The position numbers and the translations under genes were made by a program. From the IMG/VR virus record IMGVR_UViG_3300029892_000019, positions 1-22,894 of that record: a stretch of 22,894 nucleotides of DNA. One strand, 5' to 3'. Positions within the stretch are counted from its first letter, which is position 1. Each line of letters starts with the position of its first letter. Origin of the DNA: a virus. Below are positions 4,610-15,539 of the stretch, in pieces. Under the pieces are notes generated by a model. The model searched no databases. It worked only from the letters and a program-made list of their open reading frames with translations, and had not been told where the DNA came from.

Positions 4610-5605
4610 TCAGGCGTGCATGACCCCTTGCCGCGCCCTATTGCTACAGGTGAGGTTGGCCTGGGTCAGAATAGGCACGACAATGCCGTCCTGATTGACC
4701 GACTTCAGCTCTGGCATGATTTCCATCCAGGCGTCCTTGTGGGCGACCAGCTCCAGATAGTCGGTGTTGATGAAGTAAGCGTGCGAGGCAGGCATGCCCG
4801 AATCGCTGGAGTCATAGACCACATCGGCAGTCTTGTACTTCAGCGAGACGATGCCGGCCTGAGCCGAATCCGCCGAGGCGTAACGCTTGATGCTGGTCTG
4901 CGAGTTTTCAAAGTACGAGAAGTACACCGAATCCATCACGATCAGGTCGGGCGTGTCCATGCCACGGGTACAGGCCAGCCACAGCGGCAGCATCATCGAG
5001 TTTTCGATGGTGGTCGCCGAAGGGGTGACGCCGCCGACCGACGCATCGAACACCTGGTTGCGCCAGAAGGCGAAGGTCGAGGCGTTGATGCCGCCGACCG
5101 TGCCGACGCCGTACTGCACCGAACCGGAGCCGTCAGCGATGATGTGTTGCAGACCGCCCATCTGGTTAGTGGCGGTGCCGGCGGAATAGAGGTCTTCCGA
5201 CAGGCCGTTCGCCATCGTGCGCTGGGCGTTCTTGATCTTCGCCTTGACGAAGTTGATGATGCGGTTTTCGCCCGAGTTGGTGCGGATTTCCAGACCCGAC
5301 GCGGCGACGTTGACCGCGACTTGACGCCACGGGTATTCGGCTGCACTCAGCACGTCCGAAGCCTGGATGTTCAGCACATCAAAGCCGGAATAGCGTTGGT
5401 ACGTACTATTTTCCGCGAAGTCGATGGGGGTGACAATCGACAGGCCGCCGTCTTCCATGCGGATGCGGCCTTTGGCCGACAGCTTGCGGAACATCGCGTT
5501 GTGGTTGGAAACCGCATCGGCCACTTCGGCCTTGTGGTTGCGGTAGGTGGTCGTCACCAGTTCGGTGAACGTGGTAAACAGCGAGGATTGACCGGGAGAG
5601 GCCAT
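4610..5605 (-). CDS. Major capsid protein
   Basis: This 331-residue protein carries family-typical landmarks of podophage HK97-fold capsid proteins: an N-terminal helix (SLFTTFTELVTTTYRNHK), then NAMFRKLSAKGRIRMEDGG, then STYQRYSGFDVLNIQ, and a long central helix with ENRIINFVKAKIKNAQRTM. It is placed between the scaffold-like gene and a decoration-type gene, the usual order. A strong AAAGGAGC Shine-Dalgarno lies before ATG 5605. The length is normal for the family. It would form the icosahedral shell. No protease gene is seen nearby, so the shell is probably assembled from uncleaved protein on the scaffold. Confidence 0.88.
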   Translation of the reverse strand: MASPGQSSLFTTFTELVTTTYRNHKAEVADAVSNHNAMFRKLSAKGRIRMEDGGLSIVTPIDFAENSTYQRYSGFDVLNIQASDVLSAAEYPWRQVAVNVAASGLEIRTNSGENRIINFVKAKIKNAQRTMANGLSEDLYSAGTATNQMGGLQHIIADGSGSVQYGVGTVGGINASTFAFWRNQVFDASVGGVTPSATTIENSMMLPLWLACTRGMDTPDLIVMDSVYFSYFENSQTSIKRYASADSAQAGIVSLKYKTADVVYDSSDSGMPASHAYFINTDYLELVAHKDAWMEIMPELKSVNQDGIVVPILTQANLTCSNRARQGVMHA

Positions 5606-8259: not shown

Positions 8260-8634
8260 TCAGCCTCTAGTCAGTTCCCGGCGTTTCTTCGGGTCAAGCT
8301 GGTAAAACGAACGCGCTACCGCCTCATGCAGCCGCGCATCGCTCTTTTGTTCCTGATATTGCTTCTGGCGGGCGGCTTCCTGTTTTTCAACCGCCATACC
8401 CTCCCACGGCCTAGAATTGGTGCGCGCCATGTCCTCGCGGCGTTCCTTGCGGCTGGTAATCATCTTGCCGCTGGCGGGGGATTCGTAGGCTTCCCACGGT
8501 TGAATGTCCAGCATGAGGTCGGGCGCTTGGTGTTTCTCGGCAAGCCACGCCTGTTTTTCTTGCCATTTCTGTTCAGCACCTTCCGCTCCGTAGGTCGGCG
8601 TCCAGTGGGCAATGAATGTTTCCTTTTCAGTCAT
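8260..8634 (-). CDS. Small charged phage protein next to the portal gene
   Basis: The start chosen is ATG 8634 (MTEKETFIAHWTP) because AAGGA lies eight bases upstream; an in-frame ATG nine bases earlier lacks a well-placed site. The 124-residue product is strongly charged, with Trp-rich motifs (HWTPTYG, QEKQAWLAEKHQAP) and a helical C-terminal half (EKQEAARQKQYQEQKSDARLHE). It overlaps the portal stop by eight bases and ends just before the deacetylase gene, so all three were probably once one translation unit. I do not recognise a function. It may be a structural accessory protein. Confidence 0.6.
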   Translation of the reverse strand: MTEKETFIAHWTPTYGAEGAEQKWQEKQAWLAEKHQAPDLMLDIQPWEAYESPASGKMITSRKERREDMARTNSRPWEGMAVEKQEAARQKQYQEQKSDARLHEAVARSFYQLDPKKRRELTRG

Positions 8635-10735
8635 TGGGCGCATCCTTGTTCATTGCCGCAACCATCGCGGCTTCGGTCTTGCTGCCCGCCTGAATCTGCG
8701 CGATCTGAATCCTGGTCTGCGCTTCCAGCTCGGCTTTCCAGCGGTCGAACTGCAATTGCTGCTCGGCCAGATACGCTTCTTGCTGCGCCTTGAACTGCTC
8801 GACTTGGGTGGTTGCCTGCGCCCGCATCTGTTCGGCCTGCATGTCGGCCTGAATCTTCGCTTGGTCGCTTTGCGCCTGCTGTAGCTGCTGGGTAAGCTGC
8901 TGAATCTGCTGCTGGTATTGCTGTTCCTTCTGCTGCACCTGGTCAATGCCGCCCTGCTCTTGCGGTGCCTGCATCTTGTCGAAAGCGTCTTCCACAGCCG
9001 ACCCCATGCGGGCGCGACGGGTGACGGTCATGACGATTTCTTTGACCGCCTCAATCGGCACCGCCTTGGCCTGCACCGCAGGGCCGATGCCCTGGATAAA
9101 GCCGACGATGCCTTCCAGCACTTCGCGCATGCCGTGCATGTCGGCTTCGATGCTCGCGGCCACGGTCGAATCCGTCTCCACGTCGATGCGGTAGGTGCGG
9201 CCAAGGTCGGAGCGGAGTACCTGCATGACCGCTTCCCAGGTGATCGCGTTGGGGTCGACCTGCTGGCCCTGCTGCTGCGCCATCATTAGCTGCTCTTGCG
9301 TGGGCAGGTTCACAAGCGTCATCTGCTGCAGCGTGGATTGATCGAACTTCTCGGCGATGATCTCGGCCTTGATGCGGAGAATATCTCGCAGGTAGCGGGC
9401 CACGTCCTGCTGCATACGCTTGATGCGCAGGCTTCCCCATTGGCTTTTGATCTGCTGGGCGGTAGCGGTTTCGTTGGGGTTGGACGCCCCCCTCAGAATG
9501 TCGCCCATGCCGGTGATTTCATAGATGGTCTGCTTGACCGCATCGCGTTGCAGGTAAAGCTGCTGCAACACCTGAGCGCCCGCCTTGACCAGCGCCTCGG
9601 TCGTCCAGATAGCCTTGTCCAGCCCGCCCCGCTCGATCAATGCGGTGACGTTCTGCGCCGGGATCATGTCGTTGTCGTTGCCGCGCATCACCTCGGAAAG
9701 CTCCGAAATAGTGGCGTCATACACGCCGCGCAACTTGAGCGCATCGACCAGCTTGTTGATCCGCGTGCTGATGCGGTTCAGTTCTTCGGCCTGTTCCTTG
9801 TATTGCTCATACAGGCAAACCGGCGTGAGGCTGTCCACGTCGGCCACGGCGTATATCGGGCGCGGGTTGGGGAAAAAGCCCTGCAGCCCGAGTGGGTCAT
9901 CAACCACTTTCAGCGGGCCGGCCTTATAGCTGGCGTTGATGAACAGCACTTGCCGTTCGTCCTTGTCCCAAATCTCCCACACCTCGGCGGTCTTGAACGC
10001 TTCGGCCTCATGCTCGGCCATCTTGTTCAGGTCGTCGTCGTTGGTGGCGTCAAGCTGGATCGCCTTGCCGATTTCCTCGCCGAACTTCTTGATGAGGTCA
10101 TCGCGGCTCATGCGATGGCGGAACGCCTCCCAGCACACGTCTTCCCATCGCTTGCCCGGCCCGAAGCGGAAGTCGTCCCATTGCACATGCTCGGCGACGG
10201 TCTGCTCCCACTCCAGCTCTTCGGTCACGCCCTCCATTGCTTCGTGCTCGGGGTCTTCGGCGTCTTCGTCGTGGTTTTCCGGGTCTAGCCCCACCTGGCG
10301 CATGCTCGGCACGTAGCGCACGCGGCTGATACCACGACCCACCAAGAGCATGTCCAGCACATCAGCACGGGCGAGGCTGTCGAAATCGTAAGTGTCGATG
10401 CTGAAGTCGAGCGCCCGGCTCACCACTTCGGAAACCACCTTGCCCAGCTTGTCGGCGTCCTTGTAACGGCGGCGCACGTCAGGCTTGGGCGGGTTGCTGT
10501 AGATCGCCGGGAGCATCGTTTCCGTGTTCGACCACAGGATGTTGAAGCTGTTTTTCTTGACGTTTTCGCCTCGGTACAGCTCCAGCACGCCCTGCGCGGT
10601 CTTGCGCCATTCGCGCTCACGCTTGTCGGCAAGACGCAATTCCAGCAGCCAGCGGCGCACCTGGGCGGCGGGGTTGTCCCCCAAATCGCCCTTGGTTTCC
10701 AGCCCCGGCGTGGTGTTGTCGTCGTAATCAGCCAT
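8627..10735 (-). CDS. Portal protein (P22-like, head-tail connector)
   Basis: This 702-residue protein starts next to the large terminase stop (TAAATG). N-terminal helices carry REREWRKTAQGVLELYRGENVKKNSFNILWSN and ETMLPAIYSNPPKPDVRRRY, the pattern of P22-like portals. The middle has VGRGISRVRYVP and later ITGMGDILRGASNPNETATAQQIKSQW, typical of wing and stem regions. The last 120 residues are a Gln-rich coiled coil that would form the barrel inside the capsid. The length suits P22-type portals. Twelve copies would form the ring through which terminase pumps DNA. Confidence 0.9.
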   Translation of the reverse strand: MADYDDNTTPGLETKGDLGDNPAAQVRRWLLELRLADKREREWRKTAQGVLELYRGENVKKNSFNILWSNTETMLPAIYSNPPKPDVRRRYKDADKLGKVVSEVVSRALDFSIDTYDFDSLARADVLDMLLVGRGISRVRYVPSMRQVGLDPENHDEDAEDPEHEAMEGVTEELEWEQTVAEHVQWDDFRFGPGKRWEDVCWEAFRHRMSRDDLIKKFGEEIGKAIQLDATNDDDLNKMAEHEAEAFKTAEVWEIWDKDERQVLFINASYKAGPLKVVDDPLGLQGFFPNPRPIYAVADVDSLTPVCLYEQYKEQAEELNRISTRINKLVDALKLRGVYDATISELSEVMRGNDNDMIPAQNVTALIERGGLDKAIWTTEALVKAGAQVLQQLYLQRDAVKQTIYEITGMGDILRGASNPNETATAQQIKSQWGSLRIKRMQQDVARYLRDILRIKAEIIAEKFDQSTLQQMTLVNLPTQEQLMMAQQQGQQVDPNAITWEAVMQVLRSDLGRTYRIDVETDSTVAASIEADMHGMREVLEGIVGFIQGIGPAVQAKAVPIEAVKEIVMTVTRRARMGSAVEDAFDKMQAPQEQGGIDQVQQKEQQYQQQIQQLTQQLQQAQSDQAKIQADMQAEQMRAQATTQVEQFKAQQEAYLAEQQLQFDRWKAELEAQTRIQIAQIQAGSKTEAAMVAAMNKDAPND

Positions 10736-12115
10736 TTATTCCCCAAGGCGCTGCATGGTGCGGCGCTTGATGATTTCTGAGATAGTCAAATCGGTTTCGT
10801 AGCGCGGCTTTTCTTTGGCCGGGCTTGGGGGCGCAACTTCTTGCATCACCTGACAACCGTATGAATAGCCGTCGCCATCGTGTGAGGCCCAATCATGCAA
10901 AGGCTCACTAGAAAACGTCTTTGTCTGTTCGTTGTATTCGTAAGACCATGAGCGCAAGCCGTGTATGCCGCGCTCACAGTTCGTCTCATGGAACGCAACC
11001 TTGGGCGTAAGCTGCCTGGCAGCGTTTACCCGGTCAGCCTTACTTGTCATACGGACAATGCGTACTTTGTCCCACCCAAACTTGAGCGCGAATGTTTCTT
11101 CTGCACTACGCTTGGCGGCGAACGACTTGGCTTTAGCGTCGTGCGGCATCCACACCCGTCCTAGCTTCTTCCCTGCTAGCCGTTTTTCGATACGCTCGCA
11201 CCACTCGTCGGCATCTATACCCCAACCGCCGTCGTAGTCGATGATGTGATAACCACCAACCACCGGCTGCCAAAACCACCATGTTGCTGTATCCCTGCGG
11301 CCAAGGTCGCAGCTAATCTCAATCGGCGCACCATTGGGGTCATACTCGATGCTGTCACTTATCCGGCCTTCTCTTTCGGCCTGAGTAATGGACTTCGCCA
11401 AAATCGCGCCAAGGTTGGCTGCATCAAAAGAGCATTCGTATTCCTGCTCAAACTTCGCCAAGCCGTAATCAGCGCCAAATTCAGCCATGTAGGCCAATTT
11501 CTCGGCCTCTAACTGCTCGGCGGTAAATACTCCTGTATCAGTCGCCCTCAACACCTGCGCGAACGAACCCGGCGTCTTTTCAGCCGCCTTGAGCGTGGTG
11601 TATGCGTGATTCCTGCCGCGTGAAGTTGAGATGAACAACTGCCACCCGCCATTTTCGAGCAGGATCGGGCGGAGGTACGCCCTGGCCGTAGGATTAGCCA
11701 AGGCCCACTCGGAGTAAACAATGCCCGCAGGGGCAGAGCCTACAAGTGAGTTAAAGTTGTCAGAGCCAACTACCTGCCACGATGACCCGTTTTTAAACCG
11801 GATCATCATTTCGGTGTTGTTGGTGGACTCCCTTAGTTCATGCGGGAACGCCTCATCTATCCGCAGCGTCCCGGTATGCGGGTTGACAGCCGACCAGATG
11901 GCCTTACGGGCTTGTGCGGCTTCTGGCAACATATGCCAGTAGTTCGCCACCCGCTCAAATGCGGCACACGCTGCACGGTGCAAGCAAATCTCATCCTTGC
12001 CTGCCCTGCGATGCCAAACCAGCTCAGCGTGCCTGCCTCCGCGCTCCAAGTAATCCCATGCCGGCCTTTGGTAATCGCGTGGCGTCCAGTTATTTGGGAG
12101 TCTGATCGTCGGCAA
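10736..12115 (-). CDS. terL: Terminase large subunit
   Basis: The ATPase motor and nuclease that packages DNA. From the TTG start used here, residues 36-41 are RRAGKD (Walker A variant), residues 132-137 are IVYSEW (Walker B with catalytic Glu) and residues 162-170 are ISTSRGRNH (motif III). The C-terminal nuclease shows CDLGRRDTATWW (Asp near 270), PHDAK (325-326) and HDGDGY near the end. I chose TTG 12115 because AGGTGG lies five bases before it and the protein then begins MPTIRLPNNWTPRDYQ, a normal terminase start. ATG 12148 is an alternative but has only a too-close GGAGG. The gene overlaps the small-subunit gene by 26 bases. Confidence 0.9.
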   Translation of the reverse strand: MPTIRLPNNWTPRDYQRPAWDYLERGGRHAELVWHRRAGKDEICLHRAACAAFERVANYWHMLPEAAQARKAIWSAVNPHTGTLRIDEAFPHELRESTNNTEMMIRFKNGSSWQVVGSDNFNSLVGSAPAGIVYSEWALANPTARAYLRPILLENGGWQLFISTSRGRNHAYTTLKAAEKTPGSFAQVLRATDTGVFTAEQLEAEKLAYMAEFGADYGLAKFEQEYECSFDAANLGAILAKSITQAEREGRISDSIEYDPNGAPIEISCDLGRRDTATWWFWQPVVGGYHIIDYDGGWGIDADEWCERIEKRLAGKKLGRVWMPHDAKAKSFAAKRSAEETFALKFGWDKVRIVRMTSKADRVNAARQLTPKVAFHETNCERGIHGLRSWSYEYNEQTKTFSSEPLHDWASHDGDGYSYGCQVMQEVAPPSPAKEKPRYETDLTISEIIKRRTMQRLGE

Positions 12116-12362
12116 ACTTAACCACCTGCACCACCAACGGCCCGCCATCGCCTCCAGTAATGGCTTGCGGTGCCTTTCCGTCTATCCTGTCGCCAAGCTC
12201 ACGAATAGCCCAAGGCTTACCTTCTTCGGCTTCAGTCAATAGCTTTTCAGCAATCCGCCGCAATCTATCGGCGTCAGATTGGGCAATCGCCCGCTTGATT
12301 GTATTTGCCCACAAGCGATTGTTTACGCTTGAGTTTTCGTTACCTTCGGGTGCTCCTGCCAT
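12090..12362 (-). CDS. Putative terminase small subunit
   Basis: This 90-residue protein starts MAGAPEGNENSSVNNRLWANTIKRA, which matches the usual start of small phage proteins encoded just upstream of terL. A helical middle (LRRIAEKLLTEAEEG) and WAIRELGDRIDGKAPQAI follow; these are typical of the group. It probably recognises the packaging site. The frame stays open upstream to a TTG at 12473, but that extension reads as low-complexity Ser/Gln/Arg sequence without a good ribosome site, so I prefer ATG 12362 with GAGGGG just before it (unusually close). The small-subunit role is inferred from position and family resemblance. Confidence 0.7.
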   Translation of the reverse strand: MAGAPEGNENSSVNNRLWANTIKRAIAQSDADRLRRIAEKLLTEAEEGKPWAIRELGDRIDGKAPQAITGGDGGPLVVQVVKFADDQTPK

Positions 12363-12507
12363 CCCCTCACAACCGGGTTGCCGGTCGCCTCGTTCATGCT
12401 GCGTGTTAGTGCTGGTTGACCTGTTCCGCACCATTGAGGCCGACGCCTGACCGGGATTTTGTGCGCCGTTCAACGGAAAGCCATCCGGGACTGACCCGGA
12501 ATCGCAA

Positions 12508-12596
12508 CCAACACGGCTGGCGATTGCCGTTCAGTACATTTCGGCTTACTGCGTCACTCGTCCGTGTTTCCACGCGACAATCGCCATGCGTGTTGG
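12508..12596. repeat. 22-bp imperfect inverted repeat
   Basis: The arm at 12508-12529 and the reverse complement of 12575-12596 match at 19 of 22 positions, sharing CCAACACG and TGGCGATTG blocks, with 45 bases between them. It lies about 150-235 bases upstream of the small terminase gene. It may be a protein-binding site (packaging) or an RNA stem. Confidence 0.6.
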
Positions 12597-12697
12597 CCCT
12601 TTTTTCAGGGCGAGCAATCCCGCCAAGGAAGCGGGCCGCTCTTTATCTCTATATGCTGCCCGGATTTACGGGCTGCTACTTTCGAGTGGTTATACGC

Positions 12698-12724
12698 ATA
12701 TTAGCAAATTTTGGCGTTTGTCAA
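12698..12724 (-). promoter_or_regulatory. Putative leftward late promoter
   Basis: Read leftward: TTGACA (12724-12719), a 15-base spacer, then TAATAT (12703-12698). The -35 box is perfect; the spacer is one or two bases short. The -10 context GCTAATA resembles the -10 regions of the two rightward promoters. It points at the terminase and structural genes, like a late promoter downstream of an antiterminator gene. Confidence 0.55.
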
Positions 12725-12795
12725 ACCATTTCGCTAATTTTTTATTAGAGGGCTTGGCCTATTAGCGCCCGCCGAAAAATAATTGCAAAAAGCTC

Positions 12796-12823
12796 TTGCG
12801 TTCTTTTGTTTCGTGTGTATAAT
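12796..12823 (+). promoter_or_regulatory. Rightward sigma70-like promoter of the cassette island
   Basis: TTGCGT (12796-12801), a 16-base spacer, then a perfect TATAAT (12818-12823). Predicted transcription starts near 12830-12831, at or next to an ATG. It faces away from the phage late promoter and drives the small rightward ORFs. Confidence 0.7.
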
Positions 12824-12830
12824 TCAACTC

Positions 12831-12878
12831 ATGGAAGCAACGTTGTTTCCGGTCCGCGCCTCGGGAGATCAGGGGTAG
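12831..12878 (+). CDS. Possible 15-residue leader peptide
   Basis: A 16-codon frame MEATLFPVRASGDQG begins seven bases after TATAAT, so its mRNA would be nearly leaderless. Its TAG stop overlaps the TAGGAG ribosome site of the next small ORF, so translation of one could influence the other. It is too short to be sure it is translated. Confidence 0.3.
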   Translation: MEATLFPVRASGDQG

Positions 12879-12887
12879 GAGTCCAAA

Positions 12888-12968
12888 ATGTCCAAGACCA
12901 TCACTGCCAACGTCCCCGCTCGCAAGATCACCTGGGGCGGAAAAACCCAAACCTACATCGCGCATTGA
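12888..12968 (+). CDS. Small 26-residue protein
   Basis: MSKTITANVPARKITWGGKTQTYIAH has a well-placed TAGGAG upstream of ATG 12888 and ends 11 bases before the next start. It is basic and beta-like, with no recognised function. It belongs to the rightward cluster that opposes the phage operons on both sides. A strong promoter and ribosome site support expression. Confidence 0.5.
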   Translation: MSKTITANVPARKITWGGKTQTYIAH

Positions 12969-12979
12969 GGAGAGGCCCA

Positions 12980-13174
12980 ATGAACACCCTTGAACGGCAT
13001 CCGGATCTCAAGAACAAGATTTCCAAGGACTCGGCCGCGTGGTGTCTGGAACGCGGCTACACGGTCTACGCCGTGCGCAAGGATGGCTTTTGGCCTACGC
13101 CGATCGTGATTCTCTCTGTCGAGCACTTGAAGTGCTTTGACGGGCGATCCCACGACTTCTACCAAGGGGCATAG
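12980..13174 (+). CDS. Small hypothetical protein, possibly truncated by an amber stop
   Basis: The start at ATG 12980 follows a strong GAGGAGAGG ribosome site; the product has 64 residues beginning MNTLERHPDLKNKISKDSAAWC and containing GYTVYAVRKDGFWPTPIVILS. It is compact alpha/beta with no family I recognise. After the TAG at 13172-13174 the same frame continues with protein-like sequence (HSLKALGFTHEQRVHD) for about 20 codons, so an ancestral protein may have been longer. Either this is a truncated gene or the downstream resemblance is accidental. Confidence 0.55.
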   Translation: MNTLERHPDLKNKISKDSAAWCLERGYTVYAVRKDGFWPTPIVILSVEHLKCFDGRSHDFYQGA

Positions 13175-13253
13175 CACTCGCTGAAAGCGCTTGGCTTTAC
13201 CCACGAACAGCGCGTTCATGACATCACCATCCACCACCACCAAGGAGCACGCC

Positions 13254-13491
13254 ATGACCACGACCATCAAGCTCACCGACACCCAGCGCGAAGTCCTGAA
13301 GCTCGCCACCCAGCGCCCCGACGGCAACTGCGGCCTACTCCCGCACCTTTACCCAAGACGACCAAGGCCGCTGGAGCGAGCCTGAAATCGGCGCAATGAC
13401 CGAGGCCGAAGTAATCGACATCTGCATCAAGGCCACCAACTGGGCCGAGATCAAGGCGGCCCATTTTCCGATGCACGGTTTCCACGCTTAA
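13254..13491 (+). pseudogene. Frameshifted small gene (DUF3489-like N-terminus)
   Basis: ATG 13254 follows AAGGAG and opens with MTTTIKLTDTQREVLKLATQ, then RPDGN, resembling the start of DUF3489-type proteins, which are small and HTH-like. After RPDGN the frame degenerates to a Pro/Arg-rich tail and stops at 13385. In another frame, AYSRTFTQDDQGRWSEPEIG continues as sensible protein (MTEAEVIDICIKATNWAEIK) to TAA 13491, but it has no start codon before ATG 13397. This looks like a deletion or frameshift joining two parts near 13327-13333. The family name is from memory and tentative. Confidence 0.5.
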
Positions 13492-13496
13492 TAGGA

Positions 13497-13528
13497 GGCG
13501 GCCATGACCCATAACAATCGTGGCCGCC
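13497..13528 (+). promoter_or_regulatory. Inverted repeat over the ribosome site of the next gene
   Basis: GGCGGCCA (13497-13504) and TGGCCGCC (13521-13528) are perfect eight-base arms separated by 16 bases. The stem would include the end of the AGGAGG site and the first base of the start codon, so it could hide the start from ribosomes. Confidence 0.45.
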
Positions 13529-13914
13529 TCACCGTCGCCCTGGGCGGCGCGTGGCGGCTCTACAGCAACACCATCCCGACAGGTAGCCGGGCGCTTGGCA
13601 CCATCACCCGCGACATCGGCGACACCGGGGCGCTGGTGCAGATCGAGGCAACCGGCCTCTTTGTGCAAATCAACGCTGGGGCAGTTCGCACGCTGCCACA
13701 GGCCAAGGTGGCAGCGGCCATTGAAGCAGCGCGCGCCGGGTCGCAAGGCGGCCCTGGTCGTGGCCAGGGTGCCAAGGCCGCCGACGGGGCGACGGGCCTC
13801 AAGCGGGTCAATGTCAGCCTCGACGAGGCTAGCATTGAGGCCCTGCGCCAGTTCGGCGATGGCGAGTTGTCCTTGGGTATCCGGCGCGCTGCTGCTCATA
13901 TCAAAGCCCTCTAA
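13504..13914 (+). CDS. Small protein with putative ribbon-helix-helix C-terminus
   Basis: This 136-residue protein has a strong AGGAGG ribosome site. Residues 1-60 are beta-rich (RLTVALGGAWRLYS, TGALVQIEATGLFVQIN). Residues 80-95 form a Gly/Ala-rich linker. The C-terminal KRVNVSLDEASIEALRQFGD and LGIRRAAAHI resemble a ribbon-helix-helix DNA-binding unit. Its TAA stop lies inside the R'' box of an attC-like site, as usual for the last codon of an integron cassette gene. Function is unknown; a small regulator is plausible. Confidence 0.6.
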   Translation: MTHNNRGRLTVALGGAWRLYSNTIPTGSRALGTITRDIGDTGALVQIEATGLFVQINAGAVRTLPQAKVAAAIEAARAGSQGGPGRGQGAKAADGATGLKRVNVSLDEASIEALRQFGDGELSLGIRRAAAHIKAL

Positions 13915-13989
13915 CAAGGCGGTCAAGTTCGCTCCACTTCGTTCCGCTGGGACGTGCCTGACAGCCCGCCCCTTACCTCATTGTTCGGC
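13909..13989 (+). other. attC-like integron recombination site 1
   Basis: R'' is CTCTAAC (13909-13915). L'' is GGTCAAG (13921-13927) and L' is CTTACC (13972-13977); they pair except for one extra C at 13924, the hallmark extrahelical base. R' is GTTCGGC (13983-13989). Spacers are five bases on each side, and AACAA pairs with TTGTT. The imperfect palindromic layout, spacing and single bulge match attC sites. It immediately follows the stop of the gene at 13504-13914. Confidence 0.7.
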
Positions 13990-13990
13990 G

Positions 13991-14290
13991 TCATGCCAGC
14001 GACGCCAGCGTGTAATCGCCGAGGTTGACGACGATGTATCCGTCGTCGGTTTCATGGCTCACCGCTTCGCCATGCCAGCACAAGTGCGCAATGCAGTCGC
14101 GCATGTGGTCATCAGCTTGGCATTGTGGTATCGCAAACTCGTCGATTCCGCTGGTGGCCTCGCCTTCGCAGCGGATCAGCTCTTCCGCCGCCATGCTGGC
14201 TATACGGTGCGCCCGGTCGTCGGCCATCTTTTCGGCCAGTTCGCGCATCTTTTCGGCCAGTTCGCGGGCAATTTTCTGTTCTGCGTTCAT
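13991..14290 (-). CDS. Small helical protein in the second cassette-like unit
   Basis: The start chosen is ATG 14290 (MNAEQKIARELAEKMRELAEKM), giving 99 residues; GTGGAG lies upstream at a rather long spacing. The N-terminus carries a perfect seven-residue repeat (RELAEKM twice) from a 21-bp tandem duplication at 14225-14266. The C-terminal half contains two Cys-His motifs (CQADDHMRDC, HLCWHG) and an acidic DDGYIVVN stretch. It is read leftward although the two attC-like sites face right. Function is unknown; it may be an ordinary phage gene between early and late operons. Confidence 0.5.
   Translation of the reverse strand: MNAEQKIARELAEKMRELAEKMADDRAHRIASMAAEELIRCEGEATSGIDEFAIPQCQADDHMRDCIAHLCWHGEAVSHETDDGYIVVNLGDYTLASLA
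14225..14266. repeat. 21-bp perfect tandem duplication
   Basis: The unit starts CATCTTTTCGGCCAG and ends TTCGCG, copied twice back to back. It encodes the doubled RELAEKM segment and keeps the frame. Confidence 0.85.
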
Positions 14291-14304
14291 GGTCAATACT
14301 CCAC

Positions 14305-14368
14305 GCCTAACCCGTCATTCCAGCGGACGGGCGAAAAGCCCGCCCGCCCCTGAATTCAAGCGTTACCG
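14305..14368 (+). other. attC-like integron recombination site 2
   Basis: R'' is GCCTAAC (14305-14311), a perfect match to RYYYAAC. L'' is ATTCCAG (14317-14323) and L' is CTGAAT (14350-14355); they pair except for one extra C, the expected extrahelical base. A central stem GCGGACGGGC / GCCCGCCCGC follows, then R' G14362 with TTA 14363-14365. R'' also pairs six of seven with GTTCGGC at 13983-13989, as expected if 13984-14362 is one cassette. The cut point G|TT falls exactly at the stop codon of the downstream leftward phage gene. Confidence 0.75.
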
Positions 14369-14869
14369 CAGCTTGTTTTTAAGCCCCACCTGAATCCACC
14401 CAATCGCCGTATCCGCCCGCTCGTGCAATTCCCGGTAAACCTCCAGCATTTCCCCACGCTGGCGGATCGGTTCGCGTCCTGTCCCCTGGCAATGCGGGCA
14501 TTGCTTGTCCGACAGATAGGGCGTTCCATCCGTCACCACGAACTTGACGCCTTTGCACTTGCTGCACACGTCGTTGAGCCATGCCGACAACGCCTGCACC
14601 CCTACCCGGCTGGCCTTCTCCGGGTTCAGCGTAGACCCGGCGCGCATCCGGTTGGTCATTGAAACACGCGCCCAGCGGATGAACAGGCTTTTGGCTGCGG
14701 CCAGCTCTGCGGCGTCGTTGAGGATTTTTACCCGGAACAGGCTCATATGGCCGGGGTGCTTGATTGCGGCAAGGCCGGCAGCGCCCAGCACGTCCACGTC
14801 GCATGTGTGCTCGTAGTGGCGTAGATCGCCGGAGACTTCGGCTCGGGCCAGCAGGTCGAGTGCGCTCAT
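14363..14869 (-). CDS. Zinc-finger protein in late-antiterminator position (Q-like)
   Basis: The start chosen is ATG 14869 (MSALDLLARAEVSGDL), preceded by AAGGGGA, giving 168 residues. Residues 102-127 hold two pairs of Cys (CSKC, CPHC) spaced like a DnaJ-type zinc finger, followed by QGTGREP. Lambda Q has a similar arrangement. Helices flank the finger. The gene is last in the early operon and sits before the terminase genes, where an antiterminator is expected. It overlaps the HNH gene by ATGA. The Q-like role is inference; a general zinc-binding recombination accessory is an alternative. Confidence 0.55.
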   Translation of the reverse strand: MSALDLLARAEVSGDLRHYEHTCDVDVLGAAGLAAIKHPGHMSLFRVKILNDAAELAAAKSLFIRWARVSMTNRMRAGSTLNPEKASRVGVQALSAWLNDVCSKCKGVKFVVTDGTPYLSDKQCPHCQGTGREPIRQRGEMLEVYRELHERADTAIGWIQVGLKNKLR

Positions 14870-15138
14870 GTGTTCCCCTTTGTGGATAACTTTTTTATCG
14901 TGTCCGCCAGCATGTCCAGTTCGTCCATTTTCATGATGCGCAGCATGGTTTGATCGCCGTGGACGCCCTTGGGGCCGGTGTGACAGCCAGGGCAGAGCGG
15001 TACGGCCAACCAATTTGATGCGCGCTGGCTCATGCCCTGGCCTTCGCGGATGTGGTGAACATGCACGGGCGACTCGCCGCACAGGCAGCACGGCAGGCTT
15101 GCCACGCGGTCTAGATGCTGACGCTCGGCTTTGGTCAT
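14866..15138 (-). CDS. HNH/Ref-like nuclease
   Basis: This 90-residue protein has C17-x-x-C20, then HVHHI (H28, H29), WLAVPLCPGCH (C49, C52, H53) and GPKGVHGD (H60). This is the zinc-and-catalytic layout of small phage HNH enzymes related to P1 Ref. The C-terminal MDELDMLADTIKKL helix is also typical of the group. Such enzymes cut DNA and aid recombination in phage early operons. It is coupled by ATGA overlaps to ninB upstream and to the zinc-finger gene downstream, which fits a recombination role. Confidence 0.78.
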   Translation of the reverse strand: MTKAERQHLDRVASLPCCLCGESPVHVHHIREGQGMSQRASNWLAVPLCPGCHTGPKGVHGDQTMLRIMKMDELDMLADTIKKLSTKGNT

Positions 15139-15539
15139 GCGGCCACCATGTCGGCAAACTCGACGCCATGCTCGGCCCCAAAGGCCAACGTGTACTCGAT
15201 CAGGCTCGCGCCCCTCGTTTTGCTCATGCTTGCCGTGCTTTCTCGGATGTTCACAAACTCACCTTCCAGCCCCGGCACAATCTCCGCACCATGCTTAGTT
15301 GCTACAGCATGACCAGACACTAGCAGCACCTTCCATTCGTCAGCCGTGCGGCGTTTACCGGCCCATTCAAGCCCTGCGCGTGCAATGTCTGAGCACAAGG
15401 CGTGAAACTTGGCATTTTGCTCAAGGCTTCTAGTCGCCGGCTGAACCTTGACGACGTAGCCATCCGGCGCGGACTGGATCGCGGCCACAGCGCGGCGGCG
15501 GGCCTCGGTGTGGGACAGGACGAAAAGCTGCTTGGTCAT
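15135..15539 (-). CDS. ninB: NinB-like recombination protein
   Basis: The 134-residue NinB core starts at ATG 15539, with AAGGAGG at ideal distance. It carries the family signature: RSLEQNAKFHALCSDIA, GKRRTADEWKVLLVSGH, then EIVPGLEGEFVNIREST and SMSKTRGASLIEYTLAFG. NinB (lambda Orf) is a recombination mediator that helps load RecA onto single-stranded DNA. The frame is now open upstream through a small gene to at least 15707 because of a 16-bp tandem duplication, so an N-terminally extended fusion could also be made. It overlaps the HNH gene start by ATGA. Confidence 0.88.
   Translation of the reverse strand: MTKQLFVLSHTEARRRAVAAIQSAPDGYVVKVQPATRSLEQNAKFHALCSDIARAGLEWAGKRRTADEWKVLLVSGHAVATKHGAEIVPGLEGEFVNIRESTASMSKTRGASLIEYTLAFGAEHGVEFADMVAA

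Follow-up and report, generated by a model that had tools for sequence, protein, structure and literature searches.

Integron gene cassettes appear to be gained, lost and shared at one site in a phage lineage

The window, i.e. the whole stretch of DNA analysed in this study, comprises 22,894 nucleotides (positions 1-22,894 of IMG/VR record IMGVR_UViG_3300029892_000019) and is a metagenome contig that represents a fragment of a phage. Portal, terminase, head and tail genes identify the contig as phage. The terminase, portal and head genes lie to the left of an array of two cassettes, and the gene at 14363-15181 lies to its right; the latter coordinates are those of the longest ORF, and the real start is probably further inside. 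The features are listed below, with G002, L003, L004 and L005 denoting contigs that share phage sequence with the window, G001 an unrelated phage, and R1 and R2 two attC covariance models.

4610-5605, minus strand: major head protein of the phage (phrog_9953, E 6e-80)
8627-10735, minus strand: portal protein of the phage (phrog_12082, E 4.6e-164)
10736-12148, minus strand: terminase large subunit of the phage (PF03237 above cut-off; 203 viral relatives)
12399-12744, no strand: phage left flank of the array (88.6% in G002; 91.6% in L005 up to 12703; A12744 directly precedes cassette 1)
12732-12744, plus strand: CGCTAAT and spacer, forming with 14363-14368 an inverted box pair like an attI core (6/7 inverted match, spacer 5)
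12745-13983, plus strand: cassette 1, terminated by attC1 (first bases TTAGAG complementary to R'' CTCTAAC; 96-97% identical in G001)
12796-12823, plus strand: promoter-like TTGCGT-16-TATAAT within cassette 1, read by eye
12956-13328, no strand: 373 bp absent from the G001 copy of cassette 1, by alignment with that otherwise 96-97% identical copy
13504-13914, plus strand: gene of cassette 1, 136 aa (its stop codon and the R'' of attC1 overlap; third-position excess 28/18/88)
13909-13989, plus strand: attC1 (R1 44.2 bits, E 5.7e-8; R2 23.1 bits, E 1.4e-3)
13984-14362, plus strand: cassette 2, terminated by attC2 (first bases TTCGGC complementary to R'' GCCTAAC bar one base)
13991-14296, minus strand: gene of cassette 2, 101 aa, running antisense to attC (third-position excess 453/384/1398, nine homologues)
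14305-14368, plus strand: attC2 (R1 50.1 bits, E 2.8e-9; R2 49.7 bits, E 7.8e-10)
14363-15181, minus strand: phage gene whose stop codon TAA (TTA on the plus strand) starts at the array edge; common to L003, L004/G002 and L005

Analysis of the window (a phage fragment) and of G002 with tyrosine recombinase models (TIGR02249, PF00589) revealed no match, and neither contig has intI beside attI and an array as a complete integron does. As far as this contig goes, the array is thus an integrase-free attC cluster, with two attC sites and no intI nearby within the fragment, as in the clusters known as CALINs. No tRNA was found in the window, and blastn of the array region against INPHARED phages gave no match.

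Both attC sites carry AAC/GTT cores in R'' and R', L'' and L' boxes and an extra base in L''. The boxes of attC1 are R'' CTCTAAC (13909-13915), L'' GGTCAAG (13921-13927, extra base C13924), L' CTTACC (13972-13977) and R' GTTCGGC (13983-13989); those of attC2 are R'' GCCTAAC (14305-14311), L'' ATTCCAG (14317-14323, one extra C at 14320/14321), L' CTGAAT (14350-14355) and R' GTTACCG (14362-14368). An earlier sequence-only reading of this DNA had proposed two such sites with these boxes and extra bases, and all of them are present in the sequence. In attC2 the cassette DNA extends up to G14362 and the remainder of R' is phage DNA.

A first version of a regular expression for attC missed most sites, so covariance models were made. 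Model R1 was trained on 18 attC sites, taken from a class 1 integron on a plasmid and from two further phage contigs, with the window excluded. As its training set contains one homologue of attC1 and one of attC2, model R2 was made from 25 attC sites that are all bacterial, with the closest copies of the window sites omitted. Both models matched both sites and nothing else in the window (next match 8.9 bits, E 3.6, with R1; E 4.4 with R2). A search of Rfam at gathering score matched nothing.

Free folding constitutes weaker support than the covariance models. Folding of the bottom strand, which had been put forward as a check, gave -16.1 kcal/mol (z -2.9) for attC2, next to -13.8 kcal/mol (z -3.3) for the top strand of this site; the bottom strand of attC1 (z -0.25) folds no better than shuffles. 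The attC1 value would fit a reading of the two sites as chance inverted repeats and not attC. Against this, two covariance models match both sites, R1 gave zero matches in 79 phage relatives with a related terminase (814 kb), and both sites have close sequence matches in arrays with intI genes: attC1 is 84% identical over 75 bp to an attC of a Klebsiella class 1 integron array with intI1, and attC2 has an 89% match adjoining intI in genome G239 of the Thiobacillus order. An exact attC2-core pattern found no match over genome contigs, and attC2 DNA used as query against Thiobacillus-order genomes recovered sites. Chance repeats were rejected on this evidence as having next to no probability, and our analysis indicates that attC1 and attC2 are genuine attC sites.

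The start of cassette 1 pairs fully with the R'' of attC1, and its homology begins at the same base (TTAGA) in four contexts (the window, G001, G002 and G006), i.e. the same unit occurs elsewhere with the same edges, as a mobile cassette does. Among the cassettes of phage contigs, 29 of 32 have a start that fully complements their own R'' (shuffle mean 4.4, maximum 13). Family search with the cassette 1 gene product gave no match, and its structure prediction was unusable (pLDDT 34.5). The promoter-like sequence at 12796-12823 is conserved at most positions in G001, G002 and G006 and is not listed by a consensus scan that demands a closer -35 match; it is a candidate for an own promoter from which cassette 1 may be expressed. 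The 373-bp segment at 12956-13328 breaks a small ORF that is intact in G001.

Comparison of cassette 1 between phages revealed that the copy in G002, whose backbone is 92-93% identical to that of the window over the longest matches, is 84% identical at the start and 71% at the end. G001 is an unrelated phage: besides cassette 1, its blastn matches to the window are attC sites only. Since cassette 1 is closer in the unrelated G001 than in the backbone-related G002, these identities indicate that cassettes travel independently of phage backbones. A tblastx comparison of the window with G001 gave short scattered pieces only and was set aside.

The sequence-only reading had singled out 13984-14362 as one cassette-sized unit. 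This unit is indeed a cassette, starting with TTCGGC which pairs with the R'' of attC2 as had been claimed; the array however begins at 12745 and holds two cassettes instead of one. Third-codon-position changes across the nine homologues of the cassette 2 gene place it antisense to attC. Its product found no match in family search; its predicted structure is confident (pLDDT 92.7), and fold searches with it gave no match at E<=0.001. Cassette 2 may be transcribed from its own or from phage transcription, the latter being possible as it lies in the phage reading direction.

A non-exhaustive pattern search found the cassette 2 protein in at least 11 other viral contigs and, among about 85,000 genomes of bacteria, in at least one, which is a Thiobacillus MAG; no relatives beyond this MAG were found among 117 Thiobacillus-family genomes. 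The Thiobacillus homologue has 80% identity and the same start and lies in a chromosomal integron adjoining a full intI, so that the earlier proposal to look for this unit in chromosomal integrons proved fruitful. The genes neighbouring this integron, as read by eye, are presumably topA and dprA.

Comparison of the same site between phage relatives revealed one cassette-free phage and three different arrays. L005 has no attC and carries 28 bp where the window has 12704-14363, with both flanks aligning at 88-92%. A comparison with relatives lacking the island had been suggested as a way to find an uninterrupted junction; the cassette-free relative exists, but with some 40 bp of differing left flank it does not locate the empty site to the exact base. 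The array of G002 has three cassettes, namely a new one, a homologue of cassette 1 and a different last one, the extra whole cassette sitting between the left flank and the cassette 1 homologue. In L003 the last cassette differs again and carries an ORF that an NPPY motif marks as methyltransferase-like. Three different arrays, those of the window, G002 and L003, thus abut the same phage flank, ACCGCAGC, in agreement with the earlier placement of the right boundary at G14362|T14363 on the phage stop codon. In G002 one T is missing at this flank, so the phage gene extends two codons more, into cassette DNA.

As the window is a metagenome contig and attC sites repeat, it was considered whether phage reads and reads from a bacterial integron had been assembled into a chimera. 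This was rejected as very improbable, since the same phage flank is joined to cassettes in G002 and L003, which come from other IMG samples. Together with the model matches, the cassette-free L005 and the differing arrays uphold the earlier claim of integron cassettes inside a phage; the two outcomes named beforehand as contrary to it, i.e. no model match on either site and close relatives all sharing the same sequence at the same place, did not occur.

IntI prefers a G|TT target. The sequence-only reading had proposed insertion at a secondary GTT site; the right edge of the array is G|TT (G14362|T14363) as proposed, whereas the left edge is A|TT (A12744|T12745), in the window and G002 alike, and does not bear out a plain G|TT target. 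The flanks joined read CGCTAAT-TTTTT-ATTACCG, a box pair with a chance of about 0.004 when the left flank is shuffled, and may represent an attI-core-like landing site. Just before this site, the left flank at 12700-12738 of the window contains an inverted repeat, ATTAGCAAAT...ATTTCGCTAAT, with GTTTGTCAAAC within.

Overall, our analysis suggests that the island at 12745-14362 very probably consists of two genuine integron cassettes in a phage, with IntI supplied in trans and later turnover of whole cassettes. With no integrase on the contig, IntI in trans is the most likely source of recombination, and it accounts best for array edges that coincide precisely with cassette ends. This IntI, acting during infection, would come from a chromosomal integron of the host or from a co-infecting phage; the host is probably a betaproteobacterium near Thiobacillus, as judged from the cassettes alone. 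The enzyme would have recombined folded attC bottom strands with a site where the phage gene at 14363 ends. Subsequent attC x attC recombination would have led to the gain, loss or exchange of whole cassettes, and the phage could then take cassettes to new hosts. IntI action on phage DNA, the cell from which IntI came, the direction of transfer and the roles of the cassette genes are what we infer here. What this explanation chiefly leaves unaccounted for is the left edge, A|TT; the missing T in G002, the imprecise empty site in L005 and the chance that this phage encodes an integrase outside the fragment were likewise counted against it.

Alternatively, the cassettes may have come from a bacterial integron or from another phage by homologous or illegitimate recombination and would now be passengers, and the later differences may have come from homologous recombination between repeated attC sites, without IntI acting on the phage. 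Phage mosaicism is common, a comparable entry is proposed by Qi et al. 2023 (PMC9892861) for the phages of that study, and both the A|TT at the left edge and the absence of one T in G002 fit this origin. The attC2 sites of the window and L003 are almost the same in their core although the cassettes differ, a pattern that homologous exchange could also yield. However, both array edges are cassette edges and the relatives differ by whole cassettes with exact boundaries, which random breakpoints rarely produce; passenger entry is therefore considered unlikely, and IntI in trans is preferred.

Phage cassettes had been described in the earlier reading as rarely reported, but attC clusters in phages are already in the literature. 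Qi et al. 2023 (PMC9892861) detected 17 attC clusters (CALINs) among 10,705 phage genomes; of the six phage attC sites assayed there, five were active with IntI1. The array reported here resembles those CALINs in being an integrase-free attC cluster in a phage with small cassettes of unknown function, and in the DNA methyltransferase cassettes, found here in relatives of the window. It differs in that theirs occur in single phages, whereas one lineage here has a cassette-free site and varied sets and has a cassette in common with an unrelated phage; turnover at one site in a phage lineage is not described in the text consulted. Hence phage cassettes as such are known, and the new finding is unit-by-unit turnover at a fixed phage site. 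According to papers that cite Loot et al. 2024, cassettes are inserted into bacterial genomes at attG sites; both cases involve whole cassettes outside an integron at a non-attI site, but here the target is the end of a phage gene, the left edge is A|TT and the IntI action is putative.

The chromosomal integrons of Thiobacillus and relatives (L136, G239) have the attC type, cassette edges and cassette 2 homologue in common with the phage array, but their arrays start beside intI in the chromosome whereas the phage array is without intI. Bacterial integrons are the likely source of the phage cassettes. Where phage attC clusters were previously isolated cases, natural relatives now provide one site with none, two or three cassettes and a cassette common to unrelated phages. 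This makes it directly testable whether phages ferry integron cassettes among bacteria and whether they exploit the host integron to acquire genes.

Most callable cassette genes in the arrays of G001, G002, G009, G010, G011 and G014 are antisense to attC by a heuristic call, in contrast to the Klebsiella plasmid pRHBSTW-00464_5 class 1 array (L002, the source of the attC1 match), in which intI1 is present and all 10 scored cassettes are read in the attC direction. We tentatively propose, as an idea that at present has somewhat less in its favour than against it, that betaproteobacteria phages have a circulating cassette pool of their own, with accessory genes mostly antisense to attC that unrelated phages exchange through an IntI of the host or one carried by a phage, and with a fixed attI-like landing site in the present lineage.

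Other arrays were observed in viral contigs. Near one end of its contig, G002 has a further array, with nine attC sites on the minus strand (L117 13319-16560). L120, L123, L124, L130 and L133 each have a short attC array no more than a few kb away from a tyrosine recombinase of phage type; these may be prophage borders in host integrons and not phage-carried arrays. Positions 1-3775 of L114 (IMGVR_UViG_3300035642_000055) encode a full integron integrase (468.6 bits) and a methyltransferase-like ORF, and also contain two attC sites and a homologue of cassette 1. A phage integrase and tRNA-Val lie next to them, and the contig has genes for phage tail proteins and an endolysin; L114 may be either a phage that carries an integron of its own or a prophage located beside one.
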